The notes under the pieces are model-generated. The model worked only from the letters and a program-made list of their open reading frames with translations, was not told the DNA's origin and ran no database searches. The position numbers and the translations under genes are program-made. Below, one piece after another: positions 20,503-38,476 of a stretch of DNA of 64,000 nucleotides (the stretch's first letter is position 1; each line of letters starts with the position of its first letter). The DNA comes from Calothrix sp. PCC 7507 (GTDB lineage: Bacteria; Cyanobacteriota; Cyanobacteriia; Cyanobacteriales; Nostocaceae), in the NCBI RefSeq assembly GCF_000316575.1, contig NC_019682.1, forward strand, positions 1,178,001 to 1,242,000. Reading direction: 5' to 3'.

Positions 20503-20660
20503 CTACTCATTTGCGACTCAAAGCGATAGCCTTGAAAGACAAACGCTTACTTACTTCAATTGGCTATGCTGCCTAAACCAACCAAATTTTGGACACCTGC
20601 AAACTGGGCTAGCTGGAAGCCCTTCGGTATTGGCGAACAGTACCCGAATAATTATTGGGA
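20503..20660. repeat. attL: left 158-bp direct repeat
   Basis: Matches 38319-38476 at an offset of 17,816 bp with one substitution. Sequence identity ends at ATTATTGGGA; the element continues with TGTTTGAAAC and the chromosome copy with GGTATTTCGC. Confidence 0.95.
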
Positions 20661-20667
20661 TGTTTGA
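20566..20667 (+). pseudogene. Truncated 5' copy of the molybdopterin oxidoreductase gene
   Basis: ATG at 20566 followed by 31 codons identical to the start of the gene at 38382, then two element-derived codons and TGA at 20665. It is the 5' stub left with the native upstream region when the element inserted. Confidence 0.9.
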
Positions 20668-20713
20668 AACAACCACGTAACATCAGGGTTCTTAGCACAT
20701 AGATAACAATTCG

Positions 20714-20798
20714 CTACTCAAATGCTACTCAAACGAAAACTTTTTGTCATAAGTTTTAGCGATCGCACGCGGTCATAGCGCTACTCAATTACTACTCA
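20714..20798. promoter_or_regulatory. Two pairs of CTACTCA sites, candidate recombinase arm sites (left end)
   Basis: CTACTCA at 20714, 20725, 20781 and 20792: two pairs, each with exactly 11 bp between starts. The direct repeats hold the same pair spacing: 20503 with the variant CGACTCA at 20514, and 38319 with 38330. One-turn-spaced pairs at both element ends fit arm-type binding sites of a tyrosine recombinase or excisionase. Confidence 0.6.
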
Positions 20799-20831
20799 TT
20801 GCAGAGGTTGCTAGAGTGAATCCCCAGTGAG

Positions 20832-21131
20832 TTAATCCCGCTCGGTAGTGCGCTTGCCCTGGATTAAATAAGCTTCAATCCGGAGCAACTCCCGGTCAAC
20901 GATATCAAATCTTTCTTCCATATCTTTGAACCCGTGAGCAAGTCCGTCCCCTATTTGTTTTTGATTATTTCGGAGATGCTGAAAATCACGCTGTTCAGCG
21001 TAATCCTGTTTTGCATCCTGTGCTGCGGCTTGCTTGTCATGATCAATCTTATTGATCCACCAAACAAACCAACCCGATACCGAGCAACCGAAGGCCAAGA
21101 TAAAACTGGCTACACTAGGATCGAATTTCAT
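20832..21131 (-). CDS. Small membrane protein with coiled coil (holin-like candidate)
   Basis: 99 residues: one hydrophobic segment near the N-terminus (about 8-26, VASFILAFGCSVSGWFVWWI) followed by a charged helical region (about 30-90). It is last in the reverse operon, and its ATG overlaps the previous stop (4 bp). Size and topology resemble phage holins or Rz-type spanins, but no family signature is visible. Confidence 0.55.
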   Translation of the reverse strand: MKFDPSVASFILAFGCSVSGWFVWWINKIDHDKQAAAQDAKQDYAEQRDFQHLRNNQKQIGDGLAHGFKDMEERFDIVDRELLRIEAYLIQGKRTTERD

Positions 21132-21499
21132 ACATTCAACTGCATTTTAAAATCTTCATCAAAAGCGAAAGGCATGTGATTCTGAGTAGCAATTTGATTC
21201 CACTCATTTAAATCATTGACGGTCAAGTCGGCTGTAGCATCAACAACAATATTCCAAATAGTTTTAAGTAAAGCCAAATCAGAGTCTGTAATTGATGGCT
21301 TTAACTCTAAACGAGTGATGGCAATTTCCAACCGACTTCTAGCAATTTGATTATTAGTAGTAAAAGCCAAACGATTGTAGCTTTGGCTAATCATCATCTG
21401 AGTGATAAATCCCGATACATTAGAAGGAGTGGGGAAATTAGCATCAACCTGCGTTACTTCTACTAATTCCCCATTTCGATAAGTTCTTATAACTTCCAT
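21128..21499 (-). CDS. Hypothetical protein of the element operon
   Basis: 123 residues from the ATG at 21499, two bases after the upstream stop; the frame is open to 21619, but that would overlap the preceding gene by 119 bp. The N-terminus is beta-rich (MEVIRTYRNGELVEVTQVD) and the rest helical. Similar small proteins follow tail genes in some phages, but I do not recognise it. Confidence 0.6.
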   Translation of the reverse strand: MEVIRTYRNGELVEVTQVDANFPTPSNVSGFITQMMISQSYNRLAFTTNNQIARSRLEIAITRLELKPSITDSDLALLKTIWNIVVDATADLTVNDLNEWNQIATQNHMPFAFDEDFKMQLNV

Positions 21500-21500
21500 G

Positions 21501-22070
21501 CTAAACAACCCTAAACCAGAATATTGGGGAGTTACTTCTAGGCGACAAATTACTGACTGGTGCATTACTGGGCAAGGCGCCATAAGTTGCGCTTGACTGT
21601 TGGTAGGAATAAGCGCCACTGGCAGTGCTTGGACTTGTTTGACCTATTAAGAAATAAGTCCCGTAAGCATTGCCCATTGTTACTAGTGATGGTGGATTAT
21701 TGGTATTGATAGCTAAAAAATACCATCCAGCACTTAAAGTGGTGTTTAAAGTTGCTTGAACTGTTCCAGAAACACTAGTGTCAATTTCGCCTACATCTAC
21801 AATAAGATTTTCTGGTTGCCCATTATGTGAAGAATACAATCCCACCCGAATTTTGGAGCCAGTCGTATCAGCACCAACTCGAAACGCAATTCTATCAATA
21901 GTAATGGATTGTGCAACACAGAAAGGAATGTAAATTAAAGTGTCCGTTGCCGTCCCGTTAGAATTAGTCGCGGTGGTGCCAATGTGAGGACTGTGCAAGT
22001 AATATTTGCCGCTACGATATCCAGGGTGACAGCTCACGTTTATGAAGATATCGCTATTAAAAAGCGGCAT
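21501..22070 (-). CDS. Predicted virion/tail-fibre-like beta-sandwich protein
   Basis: 189 residues. The central part (about 45-130) has the alternating pattern IDRIAFRVG...KIRVGLYSSHNGQPENLIVDVGEID...LSAGWYFLAINT that is common in phage tail-fibre and baseplate proteins. The end is Ser/Asn-rich. It has no signal peptide. This is the strongest hint that the reverse operon encodes virion components. The specific function is unknown. Confidence 0.6.
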   Translation of the reverse strand: MPLFNSDIFINVSCHPGYRSGKYYLHSPHIGTTATNSNGTATDTLIYIPFCVAQSITIDRIAFRVGADTTGSKIRVGLYSSHNGQPENLIVDVGEIDTSVSGTVQATLNTTLSAGWYFLAINTNNPPSLVTMGNAYGTYFLIGQTSPSTASGAYSYQQSSATYGALPSNAPVSNLSPRSNSPIFWFRVV

Positions 22071-22071
22071 A

Positions 22072-22383
22072 TCACGTTAATTCCCTTATCAAAGCATTGC
22101 CATTAGCAGCATCCCAGATCCCGCTAATAGCACCAGTGAATTTGTATGGCACTTCAAAATAGCCTCCAGCCGATAACTTAGCAGTAAAAGCACTTGTAGA
22201 AGCAGAAGACCCAAATTCAATATATAAATTTGCGGTGCTATTATTCCAGATAGTTGCACCTTGCCTATTACTATTAGCCGAAAGCAAGCTTCCGGAACTA
22301 GTTGAAGCAGAGACAGTAGTAGGTGTTGAGGTACTGCTGCTAGAGGTAGTAACTGTTACGGATGGCGGATTATATAAACCCAT
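22072..22383 (-). CDS. Small Ser/Thr-rich element protein, paralogue of the upstream gene
   Basis: 103 residues from the ATG at 22383 (a longer frame to 22416 would overlap the previous gene). A Ser/Thr-rich N-terminus precedes a compact domain with the motif NSNRQGATIWNNSTANLYIEF, shared with its upstream neighbour (NTNRQYAAFQNNSLYDVTLIL). Such small beta domains are often phage decoration or fibre-associated proteins. The role is not established. Confidence 0.55.
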   Translation of the reverse strand: MGLYNPPSVTVTTSSSSTSTPTTVSASTSSGSLLSANSNRQGATIWNNSTANLYIEFGSSASTSAFTAKLSAGGYFEVPYKFTGAISGIWDAANGNALIRELT

Positions 22384-22385
22384 AA

Positions 22386-22700
22386 TTAACCACACTCCAC
22401 AAAAATTAATTTGCAATTATTTGCAGAAATAGCAGACACCCTTCCGACATAAAGGTTCATCTGATTAATTTCGTAACTTCCTCTAGGTTTTAAAACAATT
22501 CCCTTTCCGATACCACCTTTGGATTTATCACCCAAAATCAAAGTGACATCATAAAGGGAATTGTTCTGAAAAGCTGCATATTGCCTGTTGGTATTCGCAT
22601 TCAGAACCGTGTCGCCGGTATTAGCTGTCAAATCCTTATCCCCATGAGTGCAATTGCTAAATTTAGCAACTTCAGCCGAATTAGAGGAATTATTAATCAT
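22386..22700 (-). CDS. Small element protein with the NxNRQ-NNS beta domain
   Basis: 104 residues. The core LNANTNRQYAAFQNNS, then a Gly-rich turn, then GSYEINQMNLYVGRVSAIS matches the neighbour at 22072-22383, so the two are tandem paralogues. No known family is assigned. The gene sits in the tightly packed reverse operon. Confidence 0.55.
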   Translation of the reverse strand: MINNSSNSAEVAKFSNCTHGDKDLTANTGDTVLNANTNRQYAAFQNNSLYDVTLILGDKSKGGIGKGIVLKPRGSYEINQMNLYVGRVSAISANNCKLIFVECG

Positions 22701-22702
22701 AA

Positions 22703-23041
22703 TTAATCAGTGGGGTCATCAAGATTGTCAACGAACAAAGCAGTGTCAACTTTTACGCGCACTGTAAACTCAAATTCTGGTGCTTCAGGTGTGCCTGTTA
22801 TTTGCTGGGATGCAAATTGAATTGGCGGTAAATTCGCATTAATCCTAGCCGCATTTACTTGGTCAGTAAGTGCTGATAGGGCTTGTAATAATTTAACAAT
22901 CCCTTTAACACAAGAAGTATTGAGGGTTAAATTTTCAGCCGTTGCTAAGTTGAAATTCAATTTCAATTGGTTGTTACCAACAAACTCAATTGAACCCGCT
23001 GCTAGTTTTTCTGCTAAAGCTGAATAGCTAAGTGTGGTCAT
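22703..23041 (-). CDS. Hypothetical protein of the element operon
   Basis: 112 residues, acidic, with a central helix (about 40-68, VKGIVKLLQALSALTDQVNA) and beta-rich ends. It starts inside the end of the upstream gene (4-bp overlap), indicating translational coupling. Not recognised. Confidence 0.6.
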   Translation of the reverse strand: MTTLSYSALAEKLAAGSIEFVGNNQLKLNFNLATAENLTLNTSCVKGIVKLLQALSALTDQVNAARINANLPPIQFASQQITGTPEAPEFEFTVRVKVDTALFVDNLDDPTD

Positions 23042-23541
23042 AAATTATCAATTTTGAATTCAATAGTTTCTAGTTTGGCTCTCACCGCATTCACAAGGTC
23101 TTCAGTGGTGTCAGTCTCTGTACCCCTGTACTCCCAAACCGCTAGCGTCACCTGCTCAATCCACGGCAAAGCTTCAAATCGCAAACGATAATCGCTAGTG
23201 AGTTTGGGAAATATCACCAACTCAATGGCATTGAGTTTAATCAAGCGGCGAGTACCGTCTATTTCGGTAGTGGGAACTTGTCCCAATCCCTCAAAAACCA
23301 CGGTGTCATCAATGTGAATGCCACTGATTTGTTGGTAGAAGTAGCCGGCTCGAACCCAACTGGGCTTGGCATTCAGCCAGGAAGCTCCGACTAAAAAAAC
23401 GTGCTTGTCGGTTAGATAAGGAAGTTCAACCGGGTCGAGTAAGGGCGCTCTGATTCTGCGGTTTTGCGGATTCCCCATCAGTTTTTGAAAATAGGTCAAC
23501 TCCCAAGCCCCAAGAGCAGTTAAATCAAGACTTAAAGTCAT
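23038..23541 (-). CDS. Hypothetical protein of the element operon
   Basis: 167 residues, beta-rich with many aromatic residues, no signal peptide or membrane segment. It overlaps both neighbours by 4 bp. Composition and context suggest a structural or assembly protein, but no motif supports a named function. Confidence 0.6.
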   Translation of the reverse strand: MTLSLDLTALGAWELTYFQKLMGNPQNRRIRAPLLDPVELPYLTDKHVFLVGASWLNAKPSWVRAGYFYQQISGIHIDDTVVFEGLGQVPTTEIDGTRRLIKLNAIELVIFPKLTSDYRLRFEALPWIEQVTLAVWEYRGTETDTTEDLVNAVRAKLETIEFKIDNL

Positions 23542-23747
23542 ACCTCAACCAGTTCCCAATCCTCAGCAAGTTCAAACACGTCGAATTCTTGCTCATCCAA
23601 GAAATCTAGAAAAGTATCTGGGGCAATTTTGCCCTGAAGAAAGTCGCGGGTCATATAAGCCCGCGACATCATCAGATTAATTTCTTCCTCGAAATCTAGA
23701 TCCGATTGCCCTGGATACCAAATAGCAGGAGTAGAAAGATTAAGCAT
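23538..23747 (-). CDS. Small acidic protein of the element operon
   Basis: 69 residues, strongly acidic (FEEEINLM, FLDFLDEQEFDVFELAEDWELVEV). Its ATG shares a base with the upstream stop. Possibly a small chaperone-like or adaptor protein of the assembly pathway. Not recognised. Confidence 0.5.
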   Translation of the reverse strand: MLNLSTPAIWYPGQSDLDFEEEINLMMSRAYMTRDFLQGKIAPDTFLDFLDEQEFDVFELAEDWELVEV

Positions 23748-24286
23748 TAGCCGCTGGAGCTAAGAGGATATAATTCAGCTTCAAACCAAACGCGGCCATA
23801 ACCACCGCCTAAGCTTGGCTTAATGGCAGTGAATATCGCCTTAACCCTAGTATCAAGCGCTGCAGGAGTTTCAGCAGTCACAGGAGCGGAATAATTATAC
23901 TGTGAGTTGCTGTCCCGCGTACCCTTGCCATACCGAACATAAGGGCGATTAGAGCCTTTAGCCCGAACGACAGCAGGAGAGCTATCAGCCACCATCGCTC
24001 GAACTTGAGCCGGTCTAAATCCCCTCGGTTCGCTGGGGTCTGTTCCTTGTGCTGCTAGTCCTAGAGCGGCGATTCCCCCAAAAAACTGTATCCCGGAACT
24101 GGATGCTTGAATTGTAAAAGCAGAGTCAGTTGCTGCTAGAGGAGAAAGAACAGCATATTTAACTGCTATTTTGGGGCGGCGTTGAGTAGCTGCTCCTTCT
24201 TCTCGGAGAGGTGGATTATAAGCTTCTCTTGCCTTGGCATAAGCTAAATCTCGCTCAATTTGTCGTGCGCTTTTGCGTCTTCCCAT
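23747..24286 (-). CDS. Hypothetical basic protein of the element operon
   Basis: 179 residues. The N-terminus is basic and helical (MGRRKSARQIERDLAYAKAR) and the rest is Ala/Gly/Pro-rich with low predicted order. A 118-bp gap separates it from the upstream gene, the largest within the operon. Not recognised. Confidence 0.55.
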   Translation of the reverse strand: MGRRKSARQIERDLAYAKAREAYNPPLREEGAATQRRPKIAVKYAVLSPLAATDSAFTIQASSSGIQFFGGIAALGLAAQGTDPSEPRGFRPAQVRAMVADSSPAVVRAKGSNRPYVRYGKGTRDSNSQYNYSAPVTAETPAALDTRVKAIFTAIKPSLGGGYGRVWFEAELYPLSSSG

Positions 24287-24404
24287 ACGGAGATACTTTT
24301 AAGTGTTTATTGTTGCCTACAATCCAGTTTTAGCAAGCATTACAGGTTGTTATTCCCAGCCGGATAACATAATGTTGTCCGTTAAATTTTTGGCACGATT
24401 TGCT

Positions 24405-25223
24405 TTATACCCGCTCGATAACACTTCTTAAACGACTTCCAGACACAGCTACCAAATTTATGGGATTTTGTTTGCCCCAAATGAGTAGCTGTGCAAATCT
24501 GAACTTTACGTCTGTAACTCTTCTACGAGCGAATTTTTTTACTTGTCTTCCGTAAACTCTGTGTGTACCTGGATTTGCGGGGTAAATGCGGTCATTGTCG
24601 ATGTATTGCAGGTAATCGCGGTCAAAGGGGTGGTTTTGGATATCAAGGACTGCTCTAACGATCCGTTCGCCTTCAGTTTTATTCGTAACTAGTAACTTCA
24701 ACTCGTATCCACGTTCTTTGTCCGAGTAGGTGCATTTGAAATGACCTTTATTCCATATAAATAGAGGAGTAGCAAAGACATTTTTTATGGTTCTAGCTAG
24801 TGATTCTGCATTGGTTCTGCTAATAGTTTCGGAGCTTTCATTCATCAGTCTGAATGTGATTTCAGCCTCAACTTGAGGCGTACCATCACTATGAAGATTG
24901 AAATTATAAGGCTCTAAAAAATAAAGTTTGACCTGCGGTTTAAAGGTGCGCTCTGATTGAATTTCATACCAAGGAATGCCATAAACAGGGCGCTGTAATG
25001 CTTGAGCATGACCACAGGTAATCTCAAATAACCACATCCTCATTAGAGTCATGGTTGAGGTGTCGTCATCTTTCATCAAACAAGAATGCTTGAGTCTGGG
25101 CTTAGGATTGCTAACATCATCATCTGGTTGATTTTTAAAGTAAGCTCGAACCGCTTTATTATGTTCGAGCCTGACTATATCTTGGAGATTCTCCCATTCG
25201 TCAAACCCTTCTGGTAAAGGCAT
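24405..25223 (-). CDS. Hypothetical protein of the element operon
   Basis: 272 residues without signal peptide or membrane segment. It has mixed alpha/beta composition with a repeated aromatic pattern (LYFLEPYNFNLHSDGTP, VEAEITFRLMNES). Its start overlaps the end of the 918-residue gene by one base. Not recognised; possibly virion-associated from context. Confidence 0.6.
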   Translation of the reverse strand: MPLPEGFDEWENLQDIVRLEHNKAVRAYFKNQPDDDVSNPKPRLKHSCLMKDDDTSTMTLMRMWLFEITCGHAQALQRPVYGIPWYEIQSERTFKPQVKLYFLEPYNFNLHSDGTPQVEAEITFRLMNESSETISRTNAESLARTIKNVFATPLFIWNKGHFKCTYSDKERGYELKLLVTNKTEGERIVRAVLDIQNHPFDRDYLQYIDNDRIYPANPGTHRVYGRQVKKFARRRVTDVKFRFAQLLIWGKQNPINLVAVSGSRLRSVIERV

Positions 25224-27979
25224 TATTCATCCGCCTCCTTATCTTCATCCGCGATAGCTAAACCAGTAGCACTAACTAATTTGGAAGCATCAAACCCAGC
25301 TTTAACTTGTGTTGCTTCTGGTGGTGTAGTGCCTTGCTTGCCATCTGGCTCTTGACCCAATGCTTTGAGAAATTCGGCTTTTTGGGTTCCAATCTGAGTA
25401 ACTGTATCTTGAACGCTTAAAACTTCGGAAGCAACGCTATCAATTTGACTCACCACATTTTCAGTTGTTTCTAAAGCAGTAAAGAATTTATTTTGAAAGT
25501 TAGGTGTAGGATTCATCCAACGATAAGCCTTTTCGCTAACCTCACCCCATTTGCGTAGGGCATTACCAATTACAGCAATCCACGAACCAACGACTTCTAA
25601 AGCACTCAAAATTGAATAGCCAATTGATTGAATTGAATTTAATAAATTAGCAGCAGCTTGATAAATTCGATTCCATTTTTTATACTCAGCCTTGATACTT
25701 CCCCATTCACTCTCACCGATTACAGTTTTAGCCAAGCTATCAAATTGACTACCAAGGATTTGACCAATATCTAATGGGCTTCCCTCTGCGTCTTTGATGC
25801 CAATAGCAGCCAAAACATTTGATAATGCACTGGTTAATGTTTGTCCCAGGTTGGCTGAAAGCATGTAGGCATTATGCAAAGTTTGCCACCAAATAAGAAT
25901 ATTTAAGGCTCTATCTAGATGCATCCATTGAGCTACTCTAGTTAATTTACCACCTATACCACCGGGAAGCTGTTCGCCAAGCTTGTTATTAATAATGTCT
26001 AATTTGCCGTTTAATCCCGCAGTTCCTACTAGGTCTAAGCCGTTGAATGCGGCATTCAATGCATCAAGCTTGTTGCTATTTTGATTCGCCTGATTCTGTA
26101 CATCGTTTATGGGTTTGCCTAGGCATCCATTGGGCTGGGAGATGTCGCAAACTGCGCCTTTTATCGGCTCTTTAATATCATTTCTGAAATCGTTATCTTT
26201 ACCCAGTGTTTTTGGTAGTTGCTGTAATAACAACGTAATAATTGCGAGCTGATTTCCTTGCTCTAATACCTTTCTTGCCAGATCATCGTAATCCTTGCCT
26301 GTTGGCGTAGACGTAGTAGTATCTTTTGGAATGGGATGTAGAGAACTTGTAGGAATTGGCTTGAGGGCATCCGCTACTGGTTCTTGCCGCTGTGGCTGCG
26401 GCGTTGTCGCTGGCCCATAAATTTTGTAACTATCAGGGCTAGTTACTTGCACATAAGAGCCACTGCTGAGGTTTATTATGCTGCCAGGTATTGCTTGATT
26501 CCTGGTGAAATCATTGCCATCAGTGAATTCTGAAGATGTTGTATTACCGCTGAATCCAGGTAATTTTGTTGGCTCAATTTCTGGGAGATTACCACCAAGG
26601 TTACTTGGAGTGTAGAAGGGATTAGGATTAATCCGAGGAGCAAGGTAGCCGCCAGGTATTTGGAAGTCATTTGTGGGTCTGGGCGTGGCGTTCTCTGGTG
26701 TGCCGGCACTAACGCTGTTATTGGGCAGTGGACTTGTCTGACTGCCGCCAGGAGTGCCACGGCTAACGTAGCTTTCGCTATTAGCCGGATGTGCAACTGA
26801 TTCTGGTGAGCGAAAATCTGTAGGAATTGGGATTGATGTCGGGTTCCCACCATAATCAATTTGCCCATCTTGCCTATTCACGAAAATAATTTTTAGGTTT
26901 CGTGCTTGTGTCCCTAGATATATGCTTCCAAAGCTGTTGACAACATATTGATCAGTACCATCTTCATTAGTTCCAACGATAACTGACCCAGCACCGTGTT
27001 GAGGCGTATCGTCGGTTATATAAATGGCTTTGATTGGCCCTCTGATATTTTGATTTAAAGGGTTGGAATAATCTGTAATTTGCCCATTACTGTTTCTAAT
27101 TTCAAACGTTAATTGAACTGAATAAAGCACGCCTACGCTTTGACCGCCAAAAAATGGATGACTCACTACTGGCTCAACAGGTCTGGCTGCTTCAGAAGTG
27201 GGATGACTTAAGCTCCAAACATAATCAGCAATCCCACCGCCAATTGCACCACCAATCATCCCGCCGACAATTGTCCCGACTGGGCCAAAGGCACTGCCAA
27301 CAGTCGCACCGAGAAGGCTACCACCAAGACTTCCGGCAGCACCAAACCCGGCTTGTGCTGGGGACTGCCCGTGAAATACGCGATTACCAAAATCTAGGGC
27401 AACCATTGCCGCCGGGATTACGGGAAACTTTCCAGCCGCAATAGGTAAAGACCTCGGTGTTGATTTTGGTAGGCTAACTTCCGCTGGGATAGCTTCTTGC
27501 AGCCCGACCCCATTCCACTCAGTAATAGGATTTAACTTGGCGCTACCTCTGGCACCACTATTGGCTGGGGTAACTGGCGGTTTAGCGCTGCTAGGTTTTG
27601 GTTGGCTATCAATAGTAGATTTTGGCATCTCATACTGATATTCATAGCTTTTAGAGCGAACAAAACCTTCCTCTACAGATGGTGTCTTGTAGCTAGAAAG
27701 TGCTTGATTTCTTGCTACTTGCTTTTCTCTTAAAAGTAGTTCTTGCTGTTGTTGCGCCTGATATTGCTCGTTAACAATTTGAGCGTTACGTGCTACTTCA
27801 TCCTGGTAACTTTGTTTAAGAGCGCGTTCGTACTTCTCTTTTGCTACTGGATTAGATAGCGGATCTCGTGGCAATGGGATATTGAGCGGGGTAGCGGTGG
27901 AAGGTCTATCCAAAATTGCACCGGCTAGCTCAATATCCGCGTAATCTAAGGATCTGAATTGGTCAGCCGATGCAGACAT
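25223..27979 (-). CDS. Large element protein with glycine-zipper region (tape-measure- or injection-protein-like candidate)
   Basis: 918 residues. A Gln/Lys-rich helical segment (about 45-98), a disordered Pro/Ser region, then a Gly/Ala zipper at 210-251 (GSLGGSLLGATVGSAFGPVG and onward) of the sort that inserts in membranes. A beta-rich domain follows (about 280-380), a long low-complexity linker (about 390-560) and a helical C-terminal third. The length, glycine zipper and helical tail recall tape-measure or ejection proteins, but no diagnostic motif is present and the surrounding genes do not identify a tail module. It is the second gene of the reverse operon. Confidence 0.65.
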   Translation of the reverse strand: MSASADQFRSLDYADIELAGAILDRPSTATPLNIPLPRDPLSNPVAKEKYERALKQSYQDEVARNAQIVNEQYQAQQQQELLLREKQVARNQALSSYKTPSVEEGFVRSKSYEYQYEMPKSTIDSQPKPSSAKPPVTPANSGARGSAKLNPITEWNGVGLQEAIPAEVSLPKSTPRSLPIAAGKFPVIPAAMVALDFGNRVFHGQSPAQAGFGAAGSLGGSLLGATVGSAFGPVGTIVGGMIGGAIGGGIADYVWSLSHPTSEAARPVEPVVSHPFFGGQSVGVLYSVQLTFEIRNSNGQITDYSNPLNQNIRGPIKAIYITDDTPQHGAGSVIVGTNEDGTDQYVVNSFGSIYLGTQARNLKIIFVNRQDGQIDYGGNPTSIPIPTDFRSPESVAHPANSESYVSRGTPGGSQTSPLPNNSVSAGTPENATPRPTNDFQIPGGYLAPRINPNPFYTPSNLGGNLPEIEPTKLPGFSGNTTSSEFTDGNDFTRNQAIPGSIINLSSGSYVQVTSPDSYKIYGPATTPQPQRQEPVADALKPIPTSSLHPIPKDTTTSTPTGKDYDDLARKVLEQGNQLAIITLLLQQLPKTLGKDNDFRNDIKEPIKGAVCDISQPNGCLGKPINDVQNQANQNSNKLDALNAAFNGLDLVGTAGLNGKLDIINNKLGEQLPGGIGGKLTRVAQWMHLDRALNILIWWQTLHNAYMLSANLGQTLTSALSNVLAAIGIKDAEGSPLDIGQILGSQFDSLAKTVIGESEWGSIKAEYKKWNRIYQAAANLLNSIQSIGYSILSALEVVGSWIAVIGNALRKWGEVSEKAYRWMNPTPNFQNKFFTALETTENVVSQIDSVASEVLSVQDTVTQIGTQKAEFLKALGQEPDGKQGTTPPEATQVKAGFDASKLVSATGLAIADEDKEADE

Positions 27980-27981
27980 AA

Positions 27982-28284
27982 TTAATTGGCTTTAAAGTTT
28001 GCGGGAATAGCTGTAGAAGAGAGTTCCTGTACAAATGTCCACGGTTTCCCAGAGGCATTATTGTAAGTTGGATCAACTGCAAGGCTGACTCTGATTAATT
28101 CGCGGGTTTTTGAGTCGGCAGGCACCCAAAAACGCCCCCATTGGGCCGCTCTCTCGGTGTAACCCGTCCCTTCAATTACAACCAAAGTCGGGTTTAGGTT
28201 GAAAAGTATTGCCCCTGTCCAGGAATGCAGTTTTTCTACTGTATTAATCGCGGAGGGAATATCTGTAGTAGTGAAACTCGACAT
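27982..28284 (-). CDS. First gene of the reverse element operon, hypothetical
   Basis: 100 residues from the ATG at 28284 (the frame is open to 28377, but the upstream part is not protein-like). The sequence has a helix near VEKLHSWTGAILF followed by beta-rich segments. The stop is 2 bp from the next start, so it is coupled to the 918-residue gene. Not recognised. Confidence 0.55.
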   Translation of the reverse strand: MSSFTTTDIPSAINTVEKLHSWTGAILFNLNPTLVVIEGTGYTERAAQWGRFWVPADSKTRELIRVSLAVDPTYNNASGKPWTFVQELSSTAIPANFKAN

Positions 28285-31251: not shown

Positions 31252-31378
31252 TACTATTTCCCCTGTCTTGATAGTAAAATAGAGCCAAGTACTGCTACTT
31301 CTATCTCCACATTACTCTGAGGTAGAGTTGGTGTTACTGAAAAATTATTCATTATTTTTCGTTCGATAAAGGTGAATG

Positions 31379-31404
31379 GGTAGCCCTTGCTACCTGTTTT
31401 TTTT
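31379..31404 (+). terminator. Forward-strand intrinsic terminator in the primase-helicase leader
   Basis: Hairpin GGTAGC-CCTT-GCTACC followed by TG and eight Ts. It terminates forward-strand transcripts, yet the genes on both sides here are on the reverse strand, so it may end an antisense RNA. Confidence 0.55.
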
Positions 31405-31422
31405 GGGTATGACATCAAGTTA

Positions 31423-31686
31423 TTAACCATCTCTTTTTTGTGACTTCAATGTTTGCGCTCGTGACTTGATCTGAGTAATTGTTTCGGGGTACATCTGAAA
31501 AACTCTTGGCATGTTTTTAATGATGTCAGCCGCTAGGTATGTGGATTGAATGCGGTCTAATTCAGGGTCGATGTCTTCAAGAAATGATATTAATTCACTC
31601 ACTTCTAAGGACAGCCGCATTGTCACTGCTTCTAACTCCGGAGATGAGGTTATGTTTTGTCTTTTGAGTTTTCTATTGTTGGTCAT
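31423..31686 (-). CDS. Hypothetical element protein
   Basis: 87 residues from the ATG at 31686. Basic N-terminus (MTNNRKLKRQN), then a helical region (LEAVTMRLSLEVSELISFLE). It may be a small DNA-binding or accessory replication protein, by position before the primase-helicase. Not recognised. Confidence 0.5.
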   Translation of the reverse strand: MTNNRKLKRQNITSSPELEAVTMRLSLEVSELISFLEDIDPELDRIQSTYLAADIIKNMPRVFQMYPETITQIKSRAQTLKSQKRDG

Positions 31687-31772
31687 TGGGTGTTGGGGAA
31701 TAAACAAAATAATGGCGGCGGGCAACCTTGGATTGGTCAGCCGCCGCCAAACTTCACTGAATTGAATGAAGG

Positions 31773-32138
31773 TTAACGTCCTCTGTCGCGTTCCAAGTCG
31801 TAAATTACTTTTTCTAGATACCAGTTGTCAGACTTGCCAGGGTTGTTCTGTCGCTGTTGCCTGAGTAAGCGCTTGCCAGTTGCTACATCACCCCGTAGCA
31901 GTGTCATTAATTGACTTTGCAGTTCCCGGTTTTTGGGGTCAGTGCGATAGGAATGAGATACTTTGCTTTTTGGCTTGTGTTCTGGAGGTCGATTGTCTCC
32001 TGGGTTTGTCAAGTTGAATTGCAAAAACCTAGTAACATTCGCTGGCAATATCCGCAAAATCAGATGAATAGCAATAGCGACAACGGCAATGACAATGCAT
32101 GGGAGAAATGTGAGGAAGACTATTGTTAAGGTATCCAT
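31773..32138 (-). CDS. Small single-pass membrane protein
   Basis: 121 residues. The first ~33 residues form one hydrophobic segment (MDTLTIVFLTFLPCIVIAVV onward). The C-terminal half is soluble and helical (ELQSQLMTLLRGDVATGKRL...DNWYLEKVIYDLERDR), a pattern I associate with uncharacterised cyanobacterial proteins. Function is unknown. Confidence 0.55.
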   Translation of the reverse strand: MDTLTIVFLTFLPCIVIAVVAIAIHLILRILPANVTRFLQFNLTNPGDNRPPEHKPKSKVSHSYRTDPKNRELQSQLMTLLRGDVATGKRLLRQQRQNNPGKSDNWYLEKVIYDLERDRGR

Positions 32139-32352
32139 AGGATGAGATGGTGATGCTACTCATCCAACATGCGGTTTTCCCTTTGATCTAGGCATCAGGG
32201 AATTTCCGCATTTTTAATTAAAGTCTTCTGTCGGGTGAATTTAGCTCTAACCATTGCTTTGCTTTCTTGGTGGTGGTCAGTGGGAAAACTTAGGGAAGGC
32301 GGATCGAGTTGGCGCTTGATCCGCCATGTTGTGTATCGAAAGAGAAAACGAA

Positions 32353-32700
32353 ATGAGCAGTTTTGATTTAAATGAGGAAGATGTTGTAATGACGGAGGTT
32401 TCTACTGGCTTTGGCTTTGGAACTCACAAAATATTGAAATTTAGCGAACTGAGAACATATTTCTTGAACTGGGTAAAAGAGATGGAGAGAAAAGGCGCTA
32501 TTGAAGCTCACTGGTTTAAGGAAGGTGGTCTCAAGTGCCAAGTTTTACCTGTCGATGGAGGTGGATGGCATAAGGGTCAATTGCGATTTCGGATGGAGTT
32601 CATCCCAGATGACCCAGAGTCTTTTTTTAAAAATGCCTCTGCTAAAGAAGAGACACCGCATTCTCCCCTAGCTGACTTGCGTTCTAATTTAGACATCTAA
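32353..32700 (+). CDS. KGK-domain-like hypothetical protein
   Basis: 115 residues from the ATG at 32353 (an upstream ATG at 32326 is possible). The sequence begins MSSFDLNEEDVVMTEVSTG and continues with a WHKGQLRFRMEFIPDD segment that resembles the cyanobacterial KGK family, whose function is unknown. The gene is followed by a hairpin terminator and converges with the regulator pair at 32777-33111. Confidence 0.5.
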   Translation: MSSFDLNEEDVVMTEVSTGFGFGTHKILKFSELRTYFLNWVKEMERKGAIEAHWFKEGGLKCQVLPVDGGGWHKGQLRFRMEFIPDDPESFFKNASAKEETPHSPLADLRSNLDI

Positions 32701-32741
32701 CCCACATCCTGCACATGTGATAGCCTCATAAGCAATCGCAT

Positions 32742-32778
32742 AAAAAAGCCGTCCTACCTGTAAAGGTGAGGACGGCTT
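32742..32778 (-). terminator. Intrinsic terminator for the regulator pair (bidirectional stem)
   Basis: Stem AAGCCGTCCT / AGGACGGCTT (32746-32755 and 32769-32778), with six A residues at 32742-32747 giving a U-run for reverse-strand transcripts. It lies between converging genes. Confidence 0.75.
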
Positions 32779-32935
32779 ACACGCTAGCTTCAAGTTTTTT
32801 GCTTAATTCCTGTTTTAGCTCTTCAATCTCACTGATTTTTGACTCTAGACGTTCTATTTCGTTTTCGATCTGTTGCTTCTCTTCTTTTTTTCTAGCCACC
32901 TGAATACGGCAATCATCAATCAGGTGGTCAAGCAT
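32777..32935 (-). CDS. Small coiled-coil protein coupled to the RHH regulator
   Basis: 52 residues from the ATG at 32935, which overlaps the end of the RHH gene by 16 bp. The sequence is almost entirely heptad coiled coil (ARKKEEKQQIENEIERLESK onward). It may modulate or dimerise with the RHH protein. The frame is open further upstream but there it is a shadow of the RHH gene. Confidence 0.5.
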   Translation of the reverse strand: MLDHLIDDCRIQVARKKEEKQQIENEIERLESKISEIEELKQELSKKLEASV

Positions 32936-33111
32936 TCCCCCAGTAACTGCTGTTCCGCAACTGAAGACACTTGATCTCTCGCTAATTGCTCTACCAGCTC
33001 GCTCTTGCTGACTCCGAGCGCTTTGGCCTTCGCTTCCAATTTCTCCACACCCTCTGGGGAGAGAGTTAACGTTAGGTCTTTCTTCCTCTGCCCATGCAGT
33101 GGCTTTCTCAT
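32920..33111 (-). CDS. Ribbon-helix-helix (CopG-type) regulator
   Basis: 63 residues: basic N-terminus, then a beta strand LTLTLSPEG and helices VEKLEAKAKALGVSKSELV, which is the RHH pattern (strand, helix A, GVSKSELV helix B). RHH proteins bind DNA as dimers and commonly autoregulate. A palindrome TTGTACC-AG-GGTACAA lies 84 bp upstream, between this gene and the forward operon starting at 33375, and is the obvious operator candidate. It is coupled to the small coiled-coil gene. Confidence 0.7.
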   Translation of the reverse strand: MRKPLHGQRKKDLTLTLSPEGVEKLEAKAKALGVSKSELVEQLARDQVSSVAEQQLLGECLTT

Positions 33112-33194
33112 TCTTTCTACCCGTGTACTTCATTTTTATTGTACCCCTGCACTATCTTTACATTTAACCCTGGCAGTATTAGACTATCCTTTAG

Positions 33195-33210
33195 TTGTAC
33201 CAGGGTACAA
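33195..33210. promoter_or_regulatory. TTGTACC-AG-GGTACAA palindrome, candidate RHH operator
   Basis: Perfect 7-bp arms around AG, in the divergent region between the RHH gene and the forward operon. A half-site TTGTACC recurs at 33139-33145, close to the RHH start. Confidence 0.55.
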
Positions 33211-33374
33211 TTATTTTGACAACCTTCTACTTAACCCCAAACCATGCAGAGATAGCAGCCTGCAAGCCCAAAGACCTGCTAGGGGAAAAATTCATCACCG
33301 CCAAACACCCGTAAGTCGTCGCGCCGCCGGGTCAACGGCAACCGCACAAAACCATCATTAACAGGAGAAAAAAC

Positions 33375-33596
33375 TTGACCAACCTAGCCCAAGACCTGCA
33401 AGCCCTGGAAGCGCACATCCTCCAAATCATCAAGTCCCCCGAATGGATCGCCATAATTGCGGCGGGAATTTATAGTCCCGAAATAACTCTAGGGGATGCA
33501 CTCCAAGCTGCAAGAGAAGCCGTAGCAGCCCATGATCTGTATCTAGAAATTAGCTTCCATTGCAGTAAACAATACTCAGAATTCAATGCCCAGTAA
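33375..33596 (+). CDS. Hypothetical element protein, first gene of the forward operon
   Basis: 73 residues. The start is TTG at 33375, supported by an AGGAG ribosome binding site 9-14 bases upstream. The protein is helical (NLAQDLQALEAHILQIIKS) and acidic overall. It overlaps the next gene by 11 bp. Not recognised. Confidence 0.55.
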   Translation: MTNLAQDLQALEAHILQIIKSPEWIAIIAAGIYSPEITLGDALQAAREAVAAHDLYLEISFHCSKQYSEFNAQ

Positions 33597-33855
33597 ATTT
33601 GTCCGCTTGATTCTCGACTCGGAAAACGAACTAGTCATCAATCTCGAAACTGTTTGCAGTGTTCACAAAATAGGTTCTCACGTTGTCGTTCAATTCATTG
33701 AAGACAGCGGTAATCTCCCATTTACCGGAGATGTAGCCGATTCATTGTGGAACTACTTCGCCAGCCATTCAATTACCATCCACCGCGCTGCACACAGTGA
33801 CAAAAACGCTGAAGCTCTTGAACAGCAAGACTTCAGCGCAAATCGCAACTCGTAA
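33586..33855 (+). CDS. Hypothetical element protein
   Basis: 89 residues with a beta-rich core (KFVRLILDSENELVINLETV and SHVVVQFIED). Translationally coupled to the preceding gene (11-bp overlap). Not recognised. Confidence 0.55.
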   Translation: MPSKFVRLILDSENELVINLETVCSVHKIGSHVVVQFIEDSGNLPFTGDVADSLWNYFASHSITIHRAAHSDKNAEALEQQDFSANRNS

Positions 33856-33888
33856 TTAGACCATCAATACAACCACTAACAAGCCATT

Positions 33889-34254
33889 ATGACCGATCAA
33901 CAGACCACCAATGGCATCACTGCCAACGCCCGATCAAACTTCACCAGTAGCCGGAAAGGACGTAAAAAGGAGTGGAAAGACTTGACTATTGATCCACTAT
34001 CGGAAGGATATGACAGCTATCAAGCTGACTATGTAGTCGGCAAAGCCCCAATTACTTGGGCATTACTTGAAGCCGGTCAATTATTTTCCCGTTCCAAGAC
34101 TGGGAAGAATTTACACGTCAAGCTCAACGATGGTCGAGCCATCTGCTTAGATACCCGTCAGCCGATTGAAATCAAGCCGTCAATCCGAAACTCTTTGCAA
34201 ATTTGGGTTGTGACTAATTTCAACAGTACTTCTGCAAATAAAGACGATTTATAA
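33889..34254 (+). CDS. Hypothetical element protein
   Basis: 121 residues with a disordered N-terminus (MTDQQTTNGITANARSNFTS), then a basic stretch RKGRKKEW and a folded C-terminal half. Possibly nucleic-acid binding by charge only. Not recognised. Confidence 0.55.
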   Translation: MTDQQTTNGITANARSNFTSSRKGRKKEWKDLTIDPLSEGYDSYQADYVVGKAPITWALLEAGQLFSRSKTGKNLHVKLNDGRAICLDTRQPIEIKPSIRNSLQIWVVTNFNSTSANKDDL

Positions 34255-34325
34255 GTGGCGACCCATCAGCAAGATGTACTATCGCCACGGCGTAACAGAA
34301 ACAATCAAATCACGCTAAAAAGATT

Positions 34326-34535
34326 ATGACAGAAGACATCGATAAATCCTACGTCCAGCGACAAATTGACCGCGCCAGATCCACAGACAATCAAGAAATC
34401 AAAAACAATTGTCTCTACCGCGCCGGCACCCAGATGGAAGTAATTGAATGCAACGGCAACGCCAATTTGACAGATGAACAACAGCAGACCGTTTTGACTG
34501 CAGCTAAAAACTTACTAGGTGATAGTTATGAGTAA
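34326..34535 (+). CDS. Hypothetical element protein
   Basis: 69 residues, charged and helical (DKSYVQRQIDRARSTDNQEI). The stop overlaps the ATG of the next gene. First of a chain of four to five overlapping short genes running to the P-loop ATPase. Confidence 0.5.
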   Translation: MTEDIDKSYVQRQIDRARSTDNQEIKNNCLYRAGTQMEVIECNGNANLTDEQQQTVLTAAKNLLGDSYE

Positions 34536-34683
34536 TCCTTTAAACCCTGAGTTTTGGCTATCACTAGGAATTACGCCCGTCGTGATTGACCCTGACGACT
34601 CCGAGAGTGTTGAGCAAGGACTGGAACAAATTACTCAGATAATACGAAATGTCGCTGACGAGTTGGAGGGTGAAGATGAGTGA
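34528..34683 (+). CDS. Short acidic element protein
   Basis: 51 codons from the ATG at 34528 (overlapping the previous stop) to TGA at 34681-34683. The peptide begins MSNPLNPEFWLSLGITPVVI and is very acidic. It is kept because it fits exactly into the overlapping gene chain. Confidence 0.5.
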   Translation: MSNPLNPEFWLSLGITPVVIDPDDSESVEQGLEQITQIIRNVADELEGEDE

Positions 34684-34873
34684 GGAATTGTGCAAAGCAT
34701 ACACTCAAGCCCTGATCGCTGATGGTGTGCCCCAGGAGATTGCCGAGAAAGCCGCTCAAGTGATTGCTAATGATCGTCCAGGGGAACCCAATTTGGGGCG
34801 ATCGCCTGAAGATCAGCAAGCTGTACTGGATGCTTGGGAAGCTTCTCAGTCAAAGGAGGTAGCAGATGAATAA
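34676..34873 (+). CDS. Short helical element protein
   Basis: 65 residues from the ATG at 34676, which overlaps the previous stop by 8 bp. The sequence MSEELCKAYTQALIADGVPQ with EIAEKAAQVIANDRP resembles a small helical domain. Not recognised. Confidence 0.5.
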   Translation: MSEELCKAYTQALIADGVPQEIAEKAAQVIANDRPGEPNLGRSPEDQQAVLDAWEASQSKEVADE

Positions 34874-34988
34874 TCAGCTAATCATCCTCATCCTGACCAT
34901 TGCATCCTTAAGTTTGGCGATCGCCGCACTCTGGAAACAGCAAGAGCGCCCTTTTTACCTAAGAATTGAGGTGCAGTATGGCAAATGA
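34866..34988 (+). CDS. Very short single-pass membrane protein
   Basis: 40 codons from the ATG at 34866 to TGA at 34986-34988, overlapping both neighbours. The first 23 residues are hydrophobic (MNNQLIILILTIASLSLAIA). It is a plausible small membrane protein of the transfer or lysis machinery; real because of the precise overlaps. Confidence 0.45.
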   Translation: MNNQLIILILTIASLSLAIAALWKQQERPFYLRIEVQYGK

Positions 34989-35208
34989 ACGAAAAATTTT
35001 AACCACAAGAGAGTTGGCTGCCGAAATAAGCAAACTCAGTGAAAAGGCAAAGGACTTACAGGCTGAAATTGAATCTATATACAATCAAATTCCTTCTCCT
35101 GCCGATGACGATGACGAATGGGAGTATTACGCTTTTCGACTTCAAATGTGTTCTCAGTCTTTGGCGGTTGCAGTATCTCAACTGATAGCAGCGGAGGTTT
35201 CTTGTTAA
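34978..35208 (+). CDS. Hypothetical coiled-coil element protein
   Basis: 76 residues from the ATG at 34978. It has an N-terminal helix/coiled coil (TRELAAEISKLSEKAKDLQA) and an acidic middle. Its TAA overlaps the ATG of the P-loop ATPase (TAATG), so the two are translationally coupled. Confidence 0.5.
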   Translation: MANERKILTTRELAAEISKLSEKAKDLQAEIESIYNQIPSPADDDDEWEYYAFRLQMCSQSLAVAVSQLIAAEVSC

Positions 35209-36416
35209 TGGCAAATGATTTAATTGAGTTGAAAGTTGCTACACCTCCCAAAGCAACCACCGCGAACACCTGGGTAGAGATGCGACTACCCAGTACTAAA
35301 ACCTTACTTCGCTACTGTGGTTGGGGATTGGGACGAATTGCCTTCAGCTGCACCCTGTTCTCAGTTCACGTCACCAGAGGCACGTTGAAATTCGGCGTTG
35401 TGTTCTGCGATTACCTGGAGCGTGGCATTAAGCATCTGGTTAAGGTGTATGATGCCCTACCTTATGCTGGAGTCTCCATGAGTCAGGTAATTGAAGCCAG
35501 TGCCACTGTTATCAATGAACCACTGGATGTTATCACCGACGTTATCACCGCCATTGAAGGTAAGCAGGTGATGATTATTGGCGAAATGGGTACAGGGAAA
35601 AGTACCTTAGCCCAATACCTTGCTTACACCGTGGGAGGCTCGGTCAAAGTTTACGAGTGTGAAGGTACTCCAGAAGACTGGCAAGGACTTGAGGTGATTG
35701 GGAAGGGAGAAAACTGGACAGCAATTGAGTCAGAGATGTCTGCGGACTTGGAGGACTTGAGCAACCAACTCAAAATTCGCAACGAAAAAGGGGATGCAGC
35801 ATTAGTCGGCACGGAACGAGTCATCATTGCTGAAGAGTATCCCGAACTGGCTTCTAAGGTGGCGTCATCGGATGAATGGCTGGAGCGCCACGCTAGGAGG
35901 GGTAGAAAAGCGCGGCGCTTCACAATTTTACTCTCTCAATATGACCGGGTAGCTGCTTGGGGACTGGAGGGTAAGAGCGACTTAGCCGATGCTTTCTACC
36001 GTATTAGATTGGGCAAGAAAGCGCTGGCTCACGCCAAAAGCCTGAAAAATGAAGCGCTGATCAACTGGCTCAACCTCGACAAGTCTCACTGTTTACTTGA
36101 CGATCAGCCTCTCAAACTCCCACCATACCGCGAGATGAAAGCCGTAACCCTGCGCGGTAGTACAACAGTACTTCAACCATTACCGAACAACCAGATCATG
36201 GATGAAAAACGCCATGAAAAACCGCTGAAAAGCGCTCAGGAAGCCGATTCTGAGGAAAATTGTTCAGACTCGGATCGGCTACTTTGGCGGCTAATTCAGC
36301 GACTGGGTGCAAATAAAAGCGACAGTTCAGTTGTAACAGAGGTGTTGGGTTTTACTGGCCGGCGCTACGCCGAAGGCGTGGCACTCCTAGAGAAGTTGCG
36401 GAAGCAGTTTGAGTGA
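35208..36416 (+). CDS. P-loop ATPase (HerA/FtsK/VirD4-like) of the element
   Basis: 402 residues from the ATG at 35208. Walker A is GEMGTGKST (125-133) and a Walker B-like RVIIAEE lies at about 204-210, followed by RHARRGRKARRFTILLSQYD, which resembles the motif region of FtsK/HerA-like DNA pumps. The C-terminal tail has a helical domain (about 350-400). Similar proteins occur on cyanobacterial plasmids. It could be a DNA translocase for packaging or transfer; neither a relaxase nor a terminase is present to decide which. Confidence 0.7.
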   Translation: MANDLIELKVATPPKATTANTWVEMRLPSTKTLLRYCGWGLGRIAFSCTLFSVHVTRGTLKFGVVFCDYLERGIKHLVKVYDALPYAGVSMSQVIEASATVINEPLDVITDVITAIEGKQVMIIGEMGTGKSTLAQYLAYTVGGSVKVYECEGTPEDWQGLEVIGKGENWTAIESEMSADLEDLSNQLKIRNEKGDAALVGTERVIIAEEYPELASKVASSDEWLERHARRGRKARRFTILLSQYDRVAAWGLEGKSDLADAFYRIRLGKKALAHAKSLKNEALINWLNLDKSHCLLDDQPLKLPPYREMKAVTLRGSTTVLQPLPNNQIMDEKRHEKPLKSAQEADSEENCSDSDRLLWRLIQRLGANKSDSSVVTEVLGFTGRRYAEGVALLEKLRKQFE

Positions 36417-36505
36417 TTTTTAAAAGCGATCGCATTACGCGGGTGCGATCGCCCCTCATTCCATCTACCCGGTAATAAAAATATCACATTAGGTTTTACC
36501 AATGC

Positions 36506-36808
36506 ATGGAAATCGAAACTGATTATCAAGCCTTAATTTTTCAAGGACTCGGACAAAAACAGCTACTGGCAATTATTGAATTAGTTGCAAGACAGATAAC
36601 TGAGCCTGATTATTATGCTCATTATGTAGCGGAAGAAATGCAACATTTGCCTGTTCGTCTGCCTCAGATTGCCTACTGTTACTGCGATACGTTGAATGAA
36701 GAGATAGATAAAATACTTTTTCTTCAACGATTGATTAATGTCTTAGCCAATGAAGCCGTAACAGGTAAATTACGTCCCAAAGATTTTAATGATGAATATG
36801 ACCCCTAA
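36506..36808 (+). CDS. Hypothetical element protein
   Basis: 100 residues, helical, acidic, with an aromatic-rich middle (ITEPDYYAHYVAEEMQHLPV). Its end overlaps the next gene by 20 bp. Not recognised. Confidence 0.5.
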   Translation: MEIETDYQALIFQGLGQKQLLAIIELVARQITEPDYYAHYVAEEMQHLPVRLPQIAYCYCDTLNEEIDKILFLQRLINVLANEAVTGKLRPKDFNDEYDP

Positions 36809-37097
36809 TAATAGCAAACCTACAAATTGTCCAAAATGTTCATCTGATAATTTGCAAGAAAACAAACCTTACGGTTATTGGGAGTGCCTAGATTGTGGGC
36901 AATATTGGGCACTGGATGCTGATGATCCAGACTATGAGGAAATGCTTTCAAATGAAGAAGTCCAAGCAAGGCTTTTCGAGAGATTCGTGGAACGGGATCG
37001 AGCGACTCAATGCGCTAATTGTGACGGCGGTGGGTTGATTGTGTTTTACGGTGAAACTAGATCCTGTCCTAAGTGCAATGGGACAGGATCTATTTGA
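36789..37097 (+). CDS. Zinc-finger protein with two CxxC pairs and a DnaJ-like CxxCxGxG block
   Basis: 102 residues. Cys14, 17, 33 and 36 form one zinc ribbon (CPKC...CLDC). The C-terminus has CANCDGGG and CPKCNGTG, resembling the DnaJ-type zinc domain. The gene overlaps the start of the integrase gene by 20 bp. It is a candidate excisionase or transcription factor, by position only. Confidence 0.6.
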   Translation: MMNMTPNNSKPTNCPKCSSDNLQENKPYGYWECLDCGQYWALDADDPDYEEMLSNEEVQARLFERFVERDRATQCANCDGGGLIVFYGETRSCPKCNGTGSI

Positions 37098-38313
37098 TAT
37101 GGATGATGATAAATGGATCGCCGTTGATAAGCGGTCTAATAAATTAATTATTCGCTTCCGGGTCAGTGGCTACCGGAAGCAATTTTTTGTAGCTACTCGG
37201 TTGAAGGATACTAAGCGCAATCGGGAAATTGTCAGGAGCAGGCGTGACGCGATCGCCACAGATATCTCACTAGGGCGGTTTGATGCCACCCTGGAGAGTT
37301 ATCAGTTTCGTGCGAGTGCGATCGCCCCCGCGGCGCTCGCCCCCGCGGCGCTTGTACGTGAAAAGCCTCAAGCCAAGTATCAATATAACTTACAGCAACT
37401 CTGGGAACGCTACACCGACTTTCAGAGTTGCCAATTAGAAAAAACGACTATTCTTACCGAATATCGTGCGATCGCCAACCTCATAAATCAATTACCGACG
37501 CGATCGCTAGAAGATGCCTCCAAAATCAGGGAATGGGTACTAGGAAATCGCAGCCATTATGTTTCTTGGAATTTATTGAACTGTCTTAATCGCTGCTGTA
37601 CATGGGCTAGTGAGTCTGACCTAATCCCTGAGAATCCATTTCAGAAACTCAAAATTCAAAAGCCTAAGAAAAGTAGTGACGATGATGATCACCGAGCTTT
37701 TACTCTTGAGCAGAGGGATTTGATCATTGAAGCGTTTGAACAAGATTCTCTACACTCTCACTACTCATCCTTGGTGAAATTTCTATTTTGGAGTGGTTGC
37801 AGACCTGGGGAAGCGTTCGCCCTGACCTGGGGAGATATTAGCGACGACTGTTGTCGCATAACTATCAGCAAGTCATGCAACGGGCACAGAGTCAAAAAAG
37901 GAACAAAGAATGGGAAGAAGCGAGTTTTCCCCTGTCAAGTTGGGTCAAGGTTGCAGCAGATGTTGTTAAGCGATCGCCCAAGATCGTACAACTCTAGTGA
38001 TTTAATTTTTTTGAGTAAAGCTGGACGGCCTATCAACAGCGGGATAATGTTTGCTTTCTGGAGTGAATGGCGTTCTGAAAATGTGTACAAGCGAAAAGTC
38101 TACAAGTACGCTGGCGTAGTGAAAAAGTTGTCAGAAGAAGGCAAAGTAATTTACTTGAAGCCTTACGCAACACGGCACACCTTCGCAACATGGGCAATTA
38201 GCAGTGGTATCACACCTGATAAGGTGGCGCTGTGGATTGGTGATACCGTCGAGACGGTTTTGAAGTATTACTGTCACCCAGAGATAGTTAATGCCGAGTG
38301 CCCGGATTTCTAA
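37078..38313 (+). CDS. int: Tyrosine recombinase (phage integrase)
   Basis: 411 residues from the ATG at 37078. N-terminal arm-binding/SAM-like region, then a catalytic domain (about 205-400). The first catalytic Arg is in SGCRPGEAFALTW (Arg242), a Lys-rich beta-hairpin follows, the second Arg is in PYATRHTFATW (Arg366) and the Tyr nucleophile is in VLKYYCHP (about 397-398). The usual His before the second Arg is Tyr, and GH is GD, substitutions known in some phage integrases. A tandem 15-bp duplication at 37323-37352 adds APAAL twice near residues 84-93. It ends 5 bp before the attR repeat, as expected for the element's own integrase. Confidence 0.92.
   Translation: MGQDLFDMDDDKWIAVDKRSNKLIIRFRVSGYRKQFFVATRLKDTKRNREIVRSRRDAIATDISLGRFDATLESYQFRASAIAPAALAPAALVREKPQAKYQYNLQQLWERYTDFQSCQLEKTTILTEYRAIANLINQLPTRSLEDASKIREWVLGNRSHYVSWNLLNCLNRCCTWASESDLIPENPFQKLKIQKPKKSSDDDDHRAFTLEQRDLIIEAFEQDSLHSHYSSLVKFLFWSGCRPGEAFALTWGDISDDCCRITISKSCNGHRVKKGTKNGKKRVFPCQVGSRLQQMLLSDRPRSYNSSDLIFLSKAGRPINSGIMFAFWSEWRSENVYKRKVYKYAGVVKKLSEEGKVIYLKPYATRHTFATWAISSGITPDKVALWIGDTVETVLKYYCHPEIVNAECPDF
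37323..37352. repeat. 15-bp in-frame tandem duplication inside the integrase gene
   Basis: Two perfect copies of CGCCCCCGCGGCGCT, encoding Ala-Pro-Ala-Ala-Leu twice in the linker before the catalytic domain. Confidence 0.85.
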
Positions 38314-38318
38314 CCTTG

Positions 38319-38476
38319 CTACTCATTTGCTACTCAAAGCGATAGCCTTGAAAGACAAACGCTTACTTACTTCAATTGGCTATGCTGCCTAAACCAACCA
38401 AATTTTGGACACCTGCAAACTGGGCTAGCTGGAAGCCCTTCGGTATTGGCGAACAGTACCCGAATAATTATTGGGA
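38319..38476. repeat. attR: right 158-bp direct repeat
   Basis: Second copy of the element repeat, containing the CTACTCA pair at 38319/38330 and the start of the molybdopterin oxidoreductase gene from ATG 38382. Confidence 0.95.

Follow-up and report, generated by a model that had tools for sequence, protein, structure and literature searches.

A 64,000-nucleotide stretch of Calothrix sp. PCC 7507 (contig NC_019682.1, positions 1,178,001 to 1,242,000; hereafter the window, with positions counted from its first letter) carries an element between two copies of the beginning of a molybdopterin oxidoreductase gene. The locus raises the question of what such an insertion does to the gene: whether it is cut off from its promoter until the element leaves, as a sequence-only reading had proposed, or is supplied with a new beginning. 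The evidence below makes it very probable that this is an integrase-mediated replacement of the 5' end of an FdhF/YdeP-type gene, with the gene probably kept working. Expression of the gene most likely continues, probably driven by a promoter in the leader that the element supplies.

In the mechanism we propose, the tyrosine integrase of this 17.8-kb integrative element of Nostoc-like cyanobacteria would recombine its attachment site, attP, with codons 20–32 of the target gene. Besides the end of the integrase gene, attP would hold a pair of arm-type sites, a leader, and ~32 initial codons in the version proper to the element. Once integrated, the element would leave the host leader and 5' end behind as a stub of 33 codons at its other end, away from the gene, and the gene would continue in frame with the leader and N-terminus brought by the element.

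Direct repeats and the rebuilt gene start

A repeat search of positions 20000–39000 returned a single direct-repeat family, 20503–20663 and 38319–38479 (161 nt, 99%). The two copies differ at repeat positions 13 and 159, so that the repeats proper are 158 nt long and mismatched only at position 13. The left repeat (attL, 20503–20660, + strand) holds the displaced host leader plus the 5' end of the gene, and the right repeat (attR, 38319–38476, + strand) holds the element's copy of the leader and the first 31–32 codons; the element between them spans 17.8 kb. A match of 158 nt is not a product of chance, and a search of the same genome with the left copy returned the two window copies and no other at E ≤ 0.001.

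The right repeat forms the opening of a 740-aa gene (38382–40604, + strand; ATG at 38382, stop at 40604), includes 63 nt before its ATG, and is crossed by an uninterrupted reading frame. The product was assigned to the FdhF/YdeP family of molybdopterin oxidoreductases by TIGR01701 (667 bits vs a cut-off of 582). Reading from 20566 in the left repeat gives the stub of the same gene, 33 codons followed by a TGA at 20665–20667 (20566–20667, + strand). The structural part of the sequence-only reading thus agrees with our data: a mobile element bounded by 158-bp repeats with one mismatch, a gene whose frame is kept and whose first 31 codons are rebuilt by the right copy, and a left copy that retains the native upstream region and a 33-codon stub. 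Its statement that the target is a protein-coding 5' end and not a tRNA also holds, as ARAGORN placed no tRNA in the window.

The integrase gene (37099–38313, + strand) encodes a protein with PF00589 and Arm-DNA-bind_2 domains, and homology to relatives starts near the ATG at 37099. It is transcribed in the direction of the target gene and stops 5 bp short of the right repeat, 68 nt before the ATG of that gene. A GC-rich repeated stretch lies within it at 37310–37360, and the window protein is about 6 residues longer (APAALAPAAL) than four aligned relatives.

Directly left of the element, at 17509–20245, the genes for a molybdate-binding protein of the modA type and for an OprB porin lie near the molybdenum enzyme. 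Of 217 same-family genomes, 207 contain a modA match, and in five genomes inspected by eye (G107, G087, G033, G211, and G213) it is far from the target gene.

Occupied and uninterrupted sites in relatives

Among the 217 same-family genomes searched, 118 had a match to the start of the target gene. A second, short copy of the gene start, ending at the same place, was found in four genomes besides the window: G059, G149 (a metagenome-assembled genome), G036 (Dendronalium phyllosphericum CENA369), and G173 (Nostoc sp. LEGE 12450). The copies lie 19.6 kb apart on one contig in G059, 18.3 kb apart on one contig in G149, and on two contigs in G036. A further assembly, G109 (locus L102, contig C81), contains the stub and the left end of the element, and the rest of the gene gave no match in that assembly.

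At four occupied sites, those of the window, G059, G149, and G036, the left copy was set against the right. The identical run begins at gene nucleotides 1, 58, 46, and 38, and ends at nucleotides 95, 100, 98, and 100, respectively. Since the interval common to the four occupied sites, over which left and right copies are identical, covers only nucleotides 58–95, the comparison places the crossover inside the gene, in codons 20–32. This interval corresponds to 20623–20660 in attL and 38439–38476 in attR (both + strand).

Upstream of the crossover interval the two copies carry codons of their own, with 8 synonymous vs 3 other differences in G059, 5 vs 1 in G149, and 1 vs 1 in G036; the window copies have no codon differences before codon 32. 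In G036, the host leader at the stub and the element leader before the gene are unlike, which bears out the earlier proposal that the original upstream region was moved to the far end of the element. These separate codons, together with the unlike leaders of G036, indicate at the level of sequence that integration exchanges both the leader and the N-terminus.

Both of the remaining forms predicted for such a system, an attB-like junction and an attP, are present in G173. The target gene of this genome continues uninterrupted across the site, and a separate 23,801-bp contig, C41, contains consecutively the integrase, the arm motifs, the 5' copy, the stop, and the left end, which is the arrangement expected of attP if the element ends join. 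The C41 stretch over the 5' copy and the left end is 86% like the attL of G059 and 80% like that of G149. The simplest reading of C41 is that it represents a free circle or plasmid, and the element may be active at present.

Two near-identical copies could also arise by segmental duplication of the 5' end of the gene or through faulty assembly, and the 99% identity of the window copies would fit such an origin. However, G059 and G149 each show the same architecture on a single contig and G036 shows it across two contigs, the copies differ upstream of the crossover interval, and the attP form is present in G173. These independent occupied sites speak strongly against an origin without site-specific recombination, which we consider extremely improbable.

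Arm-type motifs, leaders, and a putative promoter

In the 64 kb, the motif CTACTCN3TNCTACTC (at most one mismatch) has four occurrences vs 0.02 expected, and all of them are at the two ends of the element. Two putative integrase arm-type sites are at the left end (20714–20730 and 20781–20797, + strand) and another follows directly after the integrase stop (38319–38335, + strand). The displaced left leader of the window also carries the motif, with one mismatch, which suggests that the same site was occupied earlier.

Of 30 integrase-family loci examined, 29 have a double GCTACT motif after the integrase stop, among them 23 of the 24 where this gene start does not follow; the threshold, up to 2 mismatches in 12 positions over a span of 130 nt, was reached by 6 of 600 composition shuffles. 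We infer that the motif represents the arm sites bound by the integrase. A long 5' duplication was not shown at the other integrase targets examined. In G123 and G056, a gene that by eye resembles hisG lies downstream of the integrase relatives (64%) at loci L067 and L068, and the only second match is 28 nt of arm motif, located in G123 ~19.5 kb away. The G116 integrase locus had no second copy, and G158 yielded a single partial match (80 nt, 75%).

To compare leaders across the family, we retained 111 loci, the window's included, after removal of seven partial matches (G003, G074, G200, G109, G114, G031, and G093) from the 118. The start codon could not be placed in G017 and G008, which were counted as motif-less and left out of the tree and the upstream searches (109 loci). 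In 64 of the 111 loci, a 22-nt form of the motif stands 56–75 nt upstream of the gene with 6 or fewer mismatches, and the other 47 have at least 8; the best of 50 shuffles per locus had 6 to 9. A complete integrase lies beside the gene in 5 of the 109 upstream regions and in 5 of the 64 motif-bearing loci, within the available sequence; 4 of the 59 motif-bearing loci without one have <1250 bp upstream.

A signature of the integrase 3' end (at most 3 mismatches of 12) was found within 25 nt before the motif in 45 of the 64 motif-bearing loci, and in 40 of the 59 without a complete integrase, vs 14 of 943 control windows farther upstream, counts that are not independent because the genomes share ancestry. 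Truncated integrase ends gave matches in G176, G192, and G057 (E 2e-23 to 3e-6) and weak ones in G035, G191, and G033 (E 0.004 to 0.02). A quick gene tree (109 rows, codons 34 on, root uncertain), contrasting motif-bearing, integrase-bearing, and block-only leaders with the rest, required at least 12 changes of leader type; G052 (shifted motif, 8 mismatches) was placed by hand in the motif-bearing class, and the G028 branch is aberrantly long.

The leader also contains a TAGCCT block, a candidate -10 element, at 38343–38348 (+ strand), 33 nt before the ATG, and again at 20527–20532 (+ strand) in the displaced leader. In 53 of the 59 motif-bearing loci that lack a complete integrase, exact TAGCCT has the same spacing from the arm motif, and 56 of these 59 have it somewhere within the final 120 nt vs 7 of the 47 motif-less loci. 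Columns from the end of the second arm to TAGCCT are mostly 90–100% identical, with exceptions of 66 and 75%, and the later leader is mostly at 40–70%. Conservation was counted with the alignment anchored on the arm motif, since anchoring on the TAGCCT block inflates it to 98–99%. This conserved block suggests that the element carries a promoter or another leader function, and for an element of the 5'-end-replacing kind, IMEVchUSA3, delivery of a promoter was demonstrated (PMC8409611).

Taken with the integrase remnants, the motif-bearing leaders without an integrase (59 of 111 loci) seem to be decayed right ends of lost elements. A broader interpretation, which we hold to be an even call, is that repeated insertion and loss permanently swapped the leader of a single redox gene throughout the family, probably with its promoter and N-terminus, so that about half of the apparently native leaders would be decayed right ends and the att site would serve as a port for promoter cassettes. 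In this interpretation, an integrase-site motif is retained beside a kept promoter-like block. The GCTACTC-motif leader could instead be regulatory DNA of the host adopted by the integrase, with the motif-bearing relatives never occupied. Consistent with a host origin, TAGCCT-like blocks stand without the arm motif in 5 of the 109 tree loci, some block-only leaders (G001 and G107, for example) may have arisen free of any element, exact TAGCCT also appears in the 7 motif-less loci noted above, and the 3'-end signature is missing from 19 of the 59 loci. We nevertheless regard a host origin as unlikely, given the double motif after the stop of integrases not followed by this gene start, the 3'-end signature far above its control frequency, and the truncated integrase ends in G176, G192, and G057 and, weakly, in G035, G191, and G033.

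The sequence-only reading had left the gene without its native promoter, dependent on read-through from the element (from the integrase, for example), and reconnected to the promoter by excision; the full scheme would make that excision programmed, as in the heterocyst elements. In its favor, the native leader is displaced and the integrase runs into the gene from 68 nt upstream of the ATG. A weak sigma-70-like site (9/12) at 20476–20504 lies almost wholly left of the left repeat and is thus lost to the gene, and a sigma-70 consensus scan of the right repeat gave no site on the + strand. SpyCIM1, inserted in the 5' end of mutL, is reported to block transcription until excised (PMC4689407). Against it, the gene is rebuilt in frame and not broken, and the leader block of the repeat is kept in relatives. 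Same-direction xis genes sit towards the start of the element (PMC4874684), whereas the integrase here is at the end, and the table of 22 ortholog groups in that source lists no FdhF-type gene. Read-through is not required, because the repeat includes the 63-nt leader with its conserved TAGCCT block. Dependence on read-through is possible, but the full scheme is improbable, and neither the likeness to heterocyst DNA rearrangements nor developmental excision finds support here. The locus as a developmental DNA switch was a tempting reading, which this analysis corrects.

Some observations weigh against 5'-end replacement as we describe it. The absent + strand site and the displaced sigma-70-like site are among them, although sigma-70-like sites in the left region number 2, vs 1.7 expected by chance. 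Instead of a free circle, C41 could reflect tandem copies or the assembly itself, an overlap of its ends was not found, and excision is deduced from assembled sequence. The coding copies of G036 differ at only 2 of their first 100 nt despite their unlike leaders, a near-identity that simple transfer from another lineage does not predict. Left-flank synteny is weak: within up to 1.5 kb upstream of the target gene, modA was found in 1 of 109 regions, and the OprB porin and a second porin in none of the 109.

Known systems and the other genes of the element

The closest known kind of element is that which replaces the 5' end of a gene, as do the dusA islands and SXT at prfC. The window element has its own tyrosine integrase beside the att site, a crossover in the 5' coding part of a conserved gene, and an in-frame substitute for the 5' coding sequence. 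SXT differs in being a conjugative element of far greater size; among the window element's proteins given to Pfam, no conjugation gene was recognised. In SXT at prfC, the 5'-end target receives a new promoter and N-terminus (PMC8409611). The dusA-associated islands are described as integrase-borne, with a conserved 5' coding stretch, a displaced original 5' end, and a new N-terminus (PMC4482086). IMEVchUSA3, like these islands and the window element, inserts by its own integrase in a 5' coding end, displaces the original, and supplies a new N-terminus. Its new promoter was measured by reporter fusion and is weaker than the native one (PMC8409611); that of the window element is putative. The target differs from that of the dusA islands, being of the FdhF/YdeP family and not dusA or dusB, as does the host group (Proteobacteria in PMC4482086), and the decayed right ends in many relatives suggest a lasting replacement of the leader here.

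The SpyCI islands, phage-like and located in the 5' end of mutL, likewise are integrated islands in the 5' end of a gene; in one variant, a promoter in the integrase-pseudogene region drives a downstream gene (PMC3430984), and excision that depends on growth state is reported for SpyCI (PMC4689407). The heterocyst interruption elements (nifD, fdxN, hupL) break a gene until excised (PMC4874684). The window element resembles them in its place in a coding gene of heterocyst-forming cyanobacteria, its own recombinase, and its direct repeats; it differs in that the 740-aa frame is intact, the repeat is long, and the gene is outside the table in PMC4874684. Term searches of the literature gave no report of an FdhF/YdeP-type gene as such a target in cyanobacteria. 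Integration at the 3' end of a tRNA gene restores that gene and leaves its control unchanged; insertions in protein-coding 5' ends swap the leader each time. With occupied, empty, and apparently decayed sites in one bacterial family, the long-term effect on gene control is open to study.

The other genes of the element include a VapE-like helicase with a DUF3854 primase/helicase domain, recognised by domain matches (28654–31251, - strand), a P-loop ATPase with weak AAA matches (35118–36416, + strand), and a KGK-domain protein (Pfam). A reverse operon at 20832–28377 (- strand) encodes proteins without known function. A Nostocales strain carries relatives of its 272-aa protein (24405–25223) on two plasmids (62% and 39%), and the genes beside the 62% homologue, on the larger plasmid pHT582-1, are similar to the operon in size and order, though not compared by sequence. 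From the plasmid relatives and this gene order, the cargo is plausibly plasmid-like. Pfam recognised no relaxase or mating genes in the 18 of 22 element frames given to it.

Searches of 10 element proteins against PHROGs returned no capsid, a weak terminase match for the P-loop ATPase (E 0.067), and a weak tail-lysin match for the 918-aa protein (E 3e-4). This last protein, the only one by which the element was sought there, had no match in 50,697 phage records. Defence models applied to 10 element proteins gave one weak match, mad8. The integrase profile detected 35 distant loci in IMG/VR (best segment ≤32% identity) and 16 loci in named genome contigs, from which the window's own record may be left out; 6 plasmid records matched the integrase, at ≤32% identity.

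Two repeated structures were also observed. The 3' part of the VapE gene contains an inverted repeat at 29087–29320 with 43-nt arms, 91% complementary, in which TGATCCAAGG-like units are abundant. Upstream of the left repeat, an intergenic stretch of ~107 bp (20334–20441) is a dispersed repeat, with at least 3 further copies in the same genome (97, 96, and 80% identity) and copies of lower identity in relatives.

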